Positions 24,170 to 29,455 of a stretch of DNA of 40,717 nucleotides are shown piece after piece. The notes beneath the pieces were generated by a model, which was not told the origin of the DNA, searched no databases, and saw only the letters and a program-made list of their open reading frames with translations. A program made the translations under genes and the position numbers. The stretch lies in assembly GCA_902196205.1 (NCBI GenBank), contig CABIKM010000034.1, positions 1 through 40,717 of the forward strand, given 5' to 3'. Source of the DNA: Candidatus Methylomirabilis lanthanidiphila (lineage in GTDB: Bacteria; Methylomirabilota; Methylomirabilia; Methylomirabilales; Methylomirabilaceae). The stretch's first letter is position 1; each line of letters starts with the position of its first letter.

Positions 24170-25951
24170 ATGGATACGGAAAAAACGGCAATGAAAGACC
24201 TAGCCGATTCTCAGACTGAGAGAGGGAAGGTAAGCAGAAGACACTTTGTCAAAGGTGCCGCAACGATAGCGGCCGTCGCTGCGGCAATTCCCTTTGAACC
24301 CCTGCTCGGCGGAAAAGGGGCGGTCGCCGAGGCGTCGGTTGTAGACTATGATTCTGAGGACCGCGCCGAGGCCAGCTTCAACTACCGCAAAAGGGCGGCC
24401 CATACGGAGAAGATCAATGTCGGGGTTCAACCGGACAACGGCGATGCATCGAGATTCACAGACTTCAGCGGCAGCTACAGCAAAGCCCTGTTACACGACG
24501 GCCTCGGCGTGCCGAATGCCGCTGCGTGGCTCAGCCTAAGACATGCTCTCATGACCGGCGAGTTCGAAGACTTCGCCAACATCGGTGTGGGAACGCCCGG
24601 CGGCGGGGGCAACTCGAAGTTGAATGGCCCGCAGGTCGCGCTCGCATTTGACTTACAAGGCCTCGACTCACATGCCACCGTCATCCCGCCGGCGCCGAGC
24701 GTCGCCAGTACGCAGACGGCGGCCGAACAGGTCGAGCACTACTGGGCTGCTCTGCTGGCCGACGTGCCGTTCAGCAGATACTTGACGAATTCGCTGGTTG
24801 CTGAGGCTGTGGCCGACATGAACAGTCTGTCATACCTCGGAAGCCCCGCGAATGATCAGTTCTCGTTCCCGGTCACACCGCAGAATCTGTTCCGCGGGCA
24901 GTTCGTCCCTGGCGACGGCAACGTGCAGGGACCTTACGTCTCGCAGTTCATGGTCCAGCCGACATTCTGCGGCGTGCAACCTCTCAGCCAGCGGTATCAA
25001 ACGTTCCTGCCCGTGGGGGGCGGCGGGAGCGCATACATGACCTCGGTCAGCGAATACCAACTGGTCCAAAACGGCGGGGACTCGGGTCGCCAACTGGCCT
25101 TTGACCCGGCATTCCGGTTCGTTAGGAACGGTCGGGACCTTGCCGCATATACCCACGTGGACGTGCTCTATCAAGGGTACTTTACCGCCTTTCTCGTCCT
25201 GACGGGGATAGGCGCATCGCCGAATCCGGGTAACCCCTATATCGGCTCGCTGACGCAAAAAGCCTTCGCCACGCTTGGCGGGCCGGACGCCGCGGGGACG
25301 CTCGCGGAAATGGCCACGCGCGCGCTCAAAGCCGCTTGGCACCACAAATGGATCAAGGACCTGCGGATGCGGCCGGAGGAATATGGGGCCTTAGTGCATG
25401 CGAGACTTACCAATTCCAGCCCATTTCCTCAAGCGGCAGGGGCGCTGCACGGAGACGTCCTGAACTCAGCGGCACTGCCCATCATCTTCTCGACCTATGG
25501 CAGCTACTTGTTGCCACAGGCGTTCCCGGAAGGTTCGCCAACGCACCCATGCTACCCGACGGGTCACGGAACGGTCGGCGGCGCGTGCGTCACGGTGCTG
25601 AAGTTCTTCTTTGACGGCAGTCAGAGGATTAGGCCGCTGCTCAGAGGTACGGGACGGGACGTGGCCGTGCCAAGCACGAATGGTCTCGCACTCCACACGT
25701 ACACGGGCGCGGACAGGGACAATCTGGACCTTAACGGAGAACTGAACAAGCTGGCGTACAACATCTCGTTTGGTCACGGGATTCACGCCGGCATACACTT
25801 CCGCAGTTCAACCTACTGGTCGATTTTGCTGGGCGAGCAGGTTGCGCTCAGCATCCTGCAGGACCGGGCCAGGTCCTATAACGAGCCATTCACAGTCAAC
25901 ATCACCAAGTTCGACGGGACGACGGCAACCATCACCAACCAACAACACTAA
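24170..25951 (+). CDS. Tat-exported vanadium-haloperoxidase-like (PAP2 superfamily) protein
   Basis: 593 aa. The twin-arginine signal SRRHFVKGA (from residue 22) precedes a hydrophobic Ala-rich helix, so the protein is exported folded. The catalytic region matches vanadium-dependent haloperoxidases: KWIKDLRMRPEEYG (about 391-404, the Lys and Arg vanadate ligands), HPCYPTGHG (about 459-467), and AGIH (axial-His region, about 539-542) followed by FRSS. Family members oxidise halides with H2O2, while relatives are acid phosphatases. Two deviations are visible: Ser of the PSGH motif is Thr, and the Arg expected six residues before the axial His is missing (GHGIHAGIH). The length fits the algal/bacterial type. 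Apparently monocistronic and convergent with the genes downstream. Confidence 0.85.
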   Translation: MDTEKTAMKDLADSQTERGKVSRRHFVKGAATIAAVAAAIPFEPLLGGKGAVAEASVVDYDSEDRAEASFNYRKRAAHTEKINVGVQPDNGDASRFTDFSGSYSKALLHDGLGVPNAAAWLSLRHALMTGEFEDFANIGVGTPGGGGNSKLNGPQVALAFDLQGLDSHATVIPPAPSVASTQTAAEQVEHYWAALLADVPFSRYLTNSLVAEAVADMNSLSYLGSPANDQFSFPVTPQNLFRGQFVPGDGNVQGPYVSQFMVQPTFCGVQPLSQRYQTFLPVGGGGSAYMTSVSEYQLVQNGGDSGRQLAFDPAFRFVRNGRDLAAYTHVDVLYQGYFTAFLVLTGIGASPNPGNPYIGSLTQKAFATLGGPDAAGTLAEMATRALKAAWHHKWIKDLRMRPEEYGALVHARLTNSSPFPQAAGALHGDVLNSAALPIIFSTYGSYLLPQAFPEGSPTHPCYPTGHGTVGGACVTVLKFFFDGSQRIRPLLRGTGRDVAVPSTNGLALHTYTGADRDNLDLNGELNKLAYNISFGHGIHAGIHFRSSTYWSILLGEQVALSILQDRARSYNEPFTVNITKFDGTTATITNQQH

Positions 25952-26070
25952 TCAACTGGATGCGCGCACGGCGTCCATTGGGGTTGGTCGTGGAGGTAGC
26001 GGATCCGCCCTGCGCGACTGTGATCACGCGAGTCGAGCAGACCCAGAAGGCCGAGCAGACGTTCCTAGTC

Positions 26071-26088
26071 TGCGAACGTTCGCATTTT
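26071..26088. terminator. short palindrome between convergent genes
   Basis: TGCGAACGTTCGCA is a perfect 14-bp palindrome followed on the + strand by TTTT. It lies 120 bp past the haloperoxidase stop and 60 bp before the 3' end of the minus-strand gene. With a 5-bp stem it would be a weak terminator. The remaining convergent gap contains no gene. Confidence 0.3.
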
Positions 26089-26145
26089 AGTGACCAACCG
26101 TTGATCACCCGCGACGACTTCCGGCACCGTCTGAATGTCATCCGG

Positions 26146-26634
26146 TTACAGTTTGTAGCCGAACTGGCGGAGCAACGCCTTTCGCGCGGCAATGTCGGTT
26201 TCCTGTTCAATCCCCTTTGGCGCCAATCCGTCTACCACTCCCATGATGCCGCGTCCGTTGGCCGTTTCAGCCAGAATGACCTCTACCGGGTTGGCGGTCG
26301 CGCAATAGATGCCGCAGACCTCCGGCACCTGACGGATAACCGGCAGGACGTTGATCGGAAAGCAGTTCCGCAAGAAGATCAGGAAACTGTGGCCGGCCCC
26401 GATGGCGTAGGCAGTGTTGCGCGCCAGCTCCACCAGCTCCTGGTCGGTCCCGCTCCAGCGCACCAGGCACGGCCCTGAGGACTCGCAGAATGCGAGCCCA
26501 AAGGCAATGCCGGGGACAGCCGTCACGAGGGCCTCGTGCAGATCCTCGACGGTCTTGATGAAATGGGCCTGTCCCAAGATCAGGTTGACCGAGTCGGGTT
26601 TCTGGATCGTGACTGAGATGAAGTTGACGGCCAC
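26146..26634 (-). CDS. COG1839/DUF355 'adenosine-specific kinase' family protein
   Basis: 162 aa from a GTG start at 26634, which is preceded by a strong Shine-Dalgarno (GGGAGGAGCT) and gives the family's usual length and N-terminus (VAVNFISVTIQKPDSVNLI). Typical segments: GQAHFIKTVEDLHEAL, GIAFGLAFCESSGPCLVR, ICRN-like LRNCFPINVLPVI, CGIYCATANPVEVI. The family is common in archaea and some bacteria; a structure from Pyrobaculum was annotated as adenosine-specific kinase, but a physiological role is not established. It starts 63 bp after the Cdc48-like stop on the same strand, so the two probably form an operon. Confidence 0.85.
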   Translation of the reverse strand: MAVNFISVTIQKPDSVNLILGQAHFIKTVEDLHEALVTAVPGIAFGLAFCESSGPCLVRWSGTDQELVELARNTAYAIGAGHSFLIFLRNCFPINVLPVIRQVPEVCGIYCATANPVEVILAETANGRGIMGVVDGLAPKGIEQETDIAARKALLRQFGYKL

Positions 26635-29049: not shown

Positions 29050-29078
29050 ACTCTACCAAGGGCAGCAAATCACGTCAA
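29050..29078 (-). promoter_or_regulatory. candidate sigma-70 promoter for the Cdc48-like gene
   Basis: Read on the minus strand: TTGACG (29078-29073), 17-bp spacer, TAGAGT (29055-29050). Five and four matches to consensus. The distance to ATG 28983 implies a leader of about 60 nt. Confidence 0.45.
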
Positions 29079-29152: not shown

Positions 29153-29349
29153 AAAAAAGCAAAAGCCACAAGGTGTCTAGTGATACATCACCTCCGGGCA
29201 AATGCCGGACACCCCGTGGCTCTCTCGAGGAAGCCTTACTCGGAGCGGGTTTTGGTCTCAGGCTAAGCCCTCTTGCTCTGCAAGCATGTACTTCCTCGTG
29301 CTTGCTCGCAGTTCATTCGGCCATCGCCCGCTCACTAGGGCTTCCTCAC
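29153..29349 (-). ncRNA. predicted structured small RNA with own promoter and terminator
   Basis: On the minus strand, right after a good -10 box, the transcript would start GTGAGGAAGCCC. GAGGAAGCC (29346-29338) can pair with GGCTTCCTC (29235-29227); nested inside are GAGCGGG/CCCGCTC and the hairpin GCAAGCA-(12 nt)-TGCTTGC with AGGA in its loop. The 3' part is a second domain, AGCCACGGGGTGTC (29221-29208) pairing with GACACCTTGTGGCT (29177-29164) around two small hairpins, followed by TTTTGCTTTTTT, an intrinsic terminator. Total about 197 nt. No family (RNase P, tmRNA, SRP, 6S, known riboswitch) could be matched. No protein-coding frame is convincing in the 530-bp gap. Confidence 0.55.
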
Positions 29350-29353
29350 TAAT

Positions 29354-29382
29354 AATATAGTACTGCCTCCCATTACGTGCAA
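29354..29382 (-). promoter_or_regulatory. candidate sigma-70 promoter for the structured RNA
   Basis: Read on the minus strand: TTGCAC (29382-29377), 17-bp spacer, TATATT (29359-29354); the -10 matches five of six. The expected start point is about 29347-29349, exactly at the beginning of the structured region. Confidence 0.5.
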
Positions 29383-29426: not shown

Positions 29427-29455
29427 TTCACAAGAGCGGCAATGACGGCTATACT
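29427..29455 (+). promoter_or_regulatory. candidate sigma-70 promoter for the USP gene at 29514
   Basis: TTCACA (29427-29432), 17-bp spacer, TATACT (29450-29455): five of six matches in each box. It points away from the structured-RNA promoter, 45 bp distant, and gives the USP mRNA a leader of about 50 nt. Confidence 0.55.

Follow-up and report, generated by a model that had tools for sequence, protein, structure and literature searches.

A new structured RNA family, very probably encoded by a stand-alone gene, in the genus Methylomirabilis

What kind of genetic element lies between the universal-stress-protein gene (plus strand, Pfam Usp) and the Cdc48-like AAA ATPase gene (minus strand) of Candidatus Methylomirabilis lanthanidiphila? 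The window analysed here, a stretch of 40,717 nucleotides, is a single contig (C34) of a 3.05-Mb genome (G000) that is 99.98% complete. A first-pass annotation had placed in this gap, on the minus strand, an unassigned structured RNA of about 200 nt, which could be either a trans-acting molecule or a long leader of the Cdc48-like gene. The evidence presented below indicates that positions 29349-29153 (minus strand) very probably constitute a stand-alone non-coding RNA (ncRNA) gene of the genus Methylomirabilis, approximately 197 nt in length.

The proposed sigma-70-like promoter, TTGCAC-17-TATATT, is present on the minus strand and is conserved in related genomes. Its -35 element (TTGCAC; 29377-29382) contains a CTTG motif that is invariant in all 14 homologues, while the -10 element (29354-29359, following a 17-nt spacer) reads TATATT in 11 of the 14 and CATATT in the remaining three. 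The -35 box of the window copy is weak, i.e. it agrees with the consensus at only 3 of 6 positions, which is why this promoter was absent from a consensus promoter scan; the corresponding position in the relatives is occupied by TTGAAA, TTGACA or TTGCAA, giving the general form CTTGNA-17-[T/C]ATATT. At the opposite end of the unit, the terminal U-run noted previously can be read directly from the sequence (UUUUGCUUUUUU; 29164-29153, minus strand). Both promoter and terminator are retained at 14/14 homologous loci. A housekeeping-type sigma factor would start the RNA at about 29348 (the inferred start lies within 29347-29349), and the intrinsic terminator would end it at about 29153.

The predicted transcript is exceptionally stable, having a folding energy of -88.1 kcal/mol versus a shuffle mean of -63.8 kcal/mol (z -5.07; 0 of 200 shuffles as stable), and its divergent homologues yield z values of -4.4 to -5.0. 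A consensus structure and its covariation were computed using 13 distinct homologue sequences. The covariation score exceeded those of 500/500 shuffles and of all slid controls, and the consensus pairing was satisfied in 94.9% of cells, compared with 33-50% in the slid controls. Comparative alignment, suggested earlier as a check, revealed compensatory (two-sided) changes at eight base pairs, which support two domains, a branched 5' domain and a long 3' hairpin. The former is closed by the 9-bp helix P1, composed of the strands GAGGAAGCC (29339-29347, minus strand) and GGCUUCCUC (29227-29235, minus strand), both assigned by fold and alignment; this helix barely varies, and it is supported mainly by consistency rather than by covariation. 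In the interior of the domain (29243-29333, minus strand), helices P2 and P3 run up to a junction from which hairpins P4 (29309-29275) and P5 (29270-29260) emerge. The 3' domain (29161-29224, minus strand), defined by fold and covariation, is a long imperfect hairpin, made up of 16 pairs and an apical helix of 5 bp, which doubles as the terminator stem. Its large internal bulge carries the near-invariant sequence GGAGGUGAUGUA (29184-29195, minus strand, located by alignment), most of which is drawn unpaired in the consensus structure. Two finer details of the original description fared less well. The alternative AAGCCC/GGGCTT pairing, proposed as a possible switch, corresponds to a helix (AAGCCCU/AGGGCUU) that displays no compensatory change and performs no better than shuffled sequences. 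The hairpin exposing AGGA can be seen in the window copy; it is, however, peculiar to this genome, the others having GAAG or a similar sequence at that point.

Sequence constraint is distributed very unevenly along the RNA. When the two divergent homologues (from genomes G007 and G002) are compared with the other sequences, the interior of the 5' domain is 44% identical, whereas identity is 78-98% in P1 and the two strands of the hairpin (P1 itself 89-98%, the 3' hairpin strand 89%) and 98% in the bulge. The alignment of the 5'-domain interior is uncertain in these two genomes, which constitutes the weak point of the structure model. Within the 3' strand the sequence CCUUGUGGCUUUUGCUU shows no variation at all, whereas the strand opposite has drifted by way of G-U pairs. 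Given this invariance and the near-invariance of the bulge, the functional part of the RNA is probably the 3' hairpin, for which P1 and the 5' domain would serve as a scaffold.

A DNA search matched 13 other genomes of the genus, once each, and a covariance model detected full-length, single-copy homologues (129-227 bits) in 14 of 15 Methylomirabilis genomes; the copy in G006 occupies C1:858627-858432. The sole genome without the RNA (G012) is 80% complete and likewise lacks a match to the cdc48-like gene. No homologue was found with the whole-RNA model in the other 80 genomes of the phylum set (n=95, identical to the class set), and a model built on the 3' core likewise detected none in 40 genomes sampled from the class. 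The weak hits obtained at the order, class and phylum levels were rejected, being coding DNA, terminators of the ordinary kind or a coding start recognised by eye as SRP54-like. An exact-pattern scan of 84,980 species gave model-confirmed matches exclusively in Methylomirabilis or Methylomirabilota contigs; pattern matches in Bacteroidales, Pseudomonas and Bacteriovoracaceae failed the covariance model, and the RNA was not detected in phage, plasmid and viral-contig records. The label "unassigned" proved appropriate, in that the window copy has no match in Rfam 15 at E<=10 (gathering and permissive thresholds) and nothing was found over the RNA at four further loci (L011-L014) at E<=5. We found no paper on small RNAs of the Methylomirabilis/NC10 group in the library searched. 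Judging by these searches, the family appears to be restricted to Methylomirabilis, and it adds a conserved RNA gene without known relatives to the NC10 nitrite-dependent methane oxidisers.

Is this RNA a part of the cdc48-like transcription unit? The gene order usp - RNA - cdc48 is maintained in 12 genomes, with the RNA upstream of cdc48 and on the same strand, as would be expected of a cis-acting leader or attenuator. However, the 132-331-nt gap between the terminator and cdc48 contains a separate cdc48 promoter in 12/12 syntenic loci (general form TTGACG-17/18-TA[G/C]AGT; in the window TTGACG-17-TAGAGT, 29050-29078, minus strand), which lies outside the RNA unit and marks its end. Moreover, the promoter, RNA and terminator are all intact in two genomes in which the context has changed. 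In G002 the cassette precedes an rpoD-like (sigma-70) gene, and in G007 it is convergent with an hsp20-like ORF (small heat-shock protein, read by eye); the RNA is kept in G007 even though no cdc48 homologue was found there at E<=1e-150. A leader or riboswitch would be expected consistently in the 5' UTR of a single gene or regulon, with no separate promoter downstream, and this RNA is found instead in three contexts and ends at a terminator of its own. The suggestion that it forms a leader of the Cdc48-like gene was therefore rejected, and we regard it as very improbable. That 14/15 genomes have kept the RNA, even where it has moved to a new context, points to an important function.

Several minor observations were made on the neighbouring genes. 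A stretch of the cdc48 promoter is tandemly duplicated at one locus (L004). The Usp gene is associated with a promoter-like sequence (TTCACA-17-TATACT; 29427-29455, plus strand), and the alignment starts of its homologues suggest a start codon further in than 29442. Two long ORFs adjoining cdc48 (593 and 172 aa; 24170-26478, plus strand) have no Pfam match.

It could also be considered that the transcript serves as an mRNA, encoding a very short peptide that begins at the AUG inside GGAGGUGAUG, since a perfect extended Shine-Dalgarno (SD) sequence touches this codon and several genomes read MY[E/D]..PCGFCF. The spacing between the two is only 2 nt, four genomes have a stop codon immediately behind the AUG, the window copy reaches one after three codons, and G010 has no such start. 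This small ORF was discarded as not conserved, and a coding role of this type seems hardly credible; there is no conserved reading frame anywhere within the RNA among the homologues. In view of the separate promoter of cdc48, the promoter-like site of usp, the three genetic contexts, the intact cassette and the lack of a conserved reading frame, the locus is best regarded as a stand-alone RNA gene, whose promoter and terminator are conserved together with the RNA (14/14 homologues) and whose covarying structure defines a new family of a known kind, the stand-alone bacterial ncRNA. From the sequences compared we infer that the RNA is expressed and that it would act in trans, the former of the two original options, which we consider probable.

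The most specific lead to a mechanism comes from the bulge. In 13 of the 14 genomes with the RNA it includes GGAGGUGAU, a 9-nt complement of the 3' end of 16S rRNA (the anti-SD), which reads GGATCACCTCCTTT in the four genomes in which we inspected it. In 12 of 13 distinct sequences this complementarity is kept, and the predicted pairing (-16.9 kcal/mol or stronger) outweighs the 1.4-7.6 kcal/mol needed to open the site. These calculated energies, together with the complementarity, suggest 30S binding. Most likely, P1 and the 3' hairpin would form a rigid platform presenting GGAGGUGAUGUA to a partner; according to the 30S proposal, the bulge would form 9 bp with AUCACCUCC of the 16S rRNA, and the RNA would bind 30S subunits in competition with mRNA loading. 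There is a partial precedent in Staphylococcus aureus, where SprF1 is reported to bind ribosomes through a purine-rich stretch at its end and to compete with the loading of mRNA (PMC8938821). The likeness concerns this stretch and the proposed competition for ribosomes, i.e. the way of working, and no homology is claimed; SprF1 is a type I antitoxin, the antisense partner of SprG1 (PMC8938821), whereas ribosome binding by the Methylomirabilis RNA is a prediction. That the bulge pairs with the 16S 3' end, implying some 30S contact in a loose sense, is our first but tentative guess. The complete proposal, of a genus-specific RNA, neither antitoxin nor tRNA fragment, whose structurally presented SD mimic would let it regulate 30S availability globally and as a stand-alone agent, we think unlikely; if true, it would mean that anaerobic methane oxidisers possess a global control of this kind. 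In either case, the near-invariant SD-like bulge is a concrete, testable feature.

Several observations weigh against the 30S proposal. In G010 the bulge reads GGAGAUGCUGUA and the 16S 3' end is unchanged, so that the predicted pairing falls to -6.4 kcal/mol and the complementarity is lost. When an RNA of 197 nt is compared with an entire 16S rRNA, a match of 9 nt is about as long as chance would produce, and it stands out only by lying at the anti-SD. Furthermore, in several sequences a large part of the motif is predicted to be partially engaged in base pairs, and 30S binding offers no explanation for the invariant strand CCUUGUGGCUUUUGCUU. The bulge might alternatively be a protein-binding site. 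Such an RNA, 6S-like or a ribonucleoprotein scaffold, would have its bulge and terminator strand recognised by a protein, base-pairing playing no role. This is consistent with the compact, very stable fold, with a bulge and hairpin strand conserved to an extreme degree in an otherwise drifting sequence, with our failure to find a conserved complementary mRNA site, and with G010, which keeps the structure and a UGUA but loses the SD-like match. On the other side, no candidate protein was identified, and the RNA is not 6S RNA itself. The 6S model (RF00013) does not match the window RNA at E<=1, and in 11/15 genomes of the genus it has one match (E<=1) at another locus, by which canonical 6S identity was excluded. 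The two RNAs are alike in being stand-alone, highly structured, approximately 190 nt long and single-copy, with their own promoter; the Methylomirabilis RNA differs by its closed branched domain and terminator hairpin. Binding of a protein is no less likely than 30S binding, and we consider it a realistic prospect, falling somewhat short of probable. The four genomes without an RF00013 match are G002 and G012, which are incomplete, and G001 and G007 (99% and 94% complete, respectively).

A third trans mechanism is that of a base-pairing small RNA, in which the invariant 3' strand or the bulge would act as a seed against mRNAs. Conserved unpaired or U-rich stretches are typical seeds, and the 3' strand is more invariant than pairing requires. 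Against this, no genus-wide complementary site was detected in a search covering near-perfect sites: in most genomes the complement of the bulge 12-mer occurs nowhere else, so that no shared mRNA target was seen, and neither bulge nor 3' strand has a conserved second site among mRNAs. We are rather doubtful about this mechanism, a version of which with short seeds is possible. The confidence placed in these rival explanations overlaps because a stand-alone RNA may use any trans mechanism.

Finally, the GGA loops had been thought to suit a CsrA-type protein, and an RNA sequestering CsrA/RsmA would resemble the CsrB/RsmY type in being structured, containing GGA sites and ending in a terminator. 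A CsrA is indeed present in G006, but the RNA lacks the repeated, conserved GGA hairpins of that type, AGGA occupies a hairpin loop only in the window copy, and no CsrA gene (PF02599) was found in the 99.98% complete window genome. The data do not support this interpretation, which we consider extremely improbable. The CsrA gene of G006 is located at C1:1550489-1550647, and CsrA thus appears to be patchily distributed within the genus, as judged from the two genomes checked.
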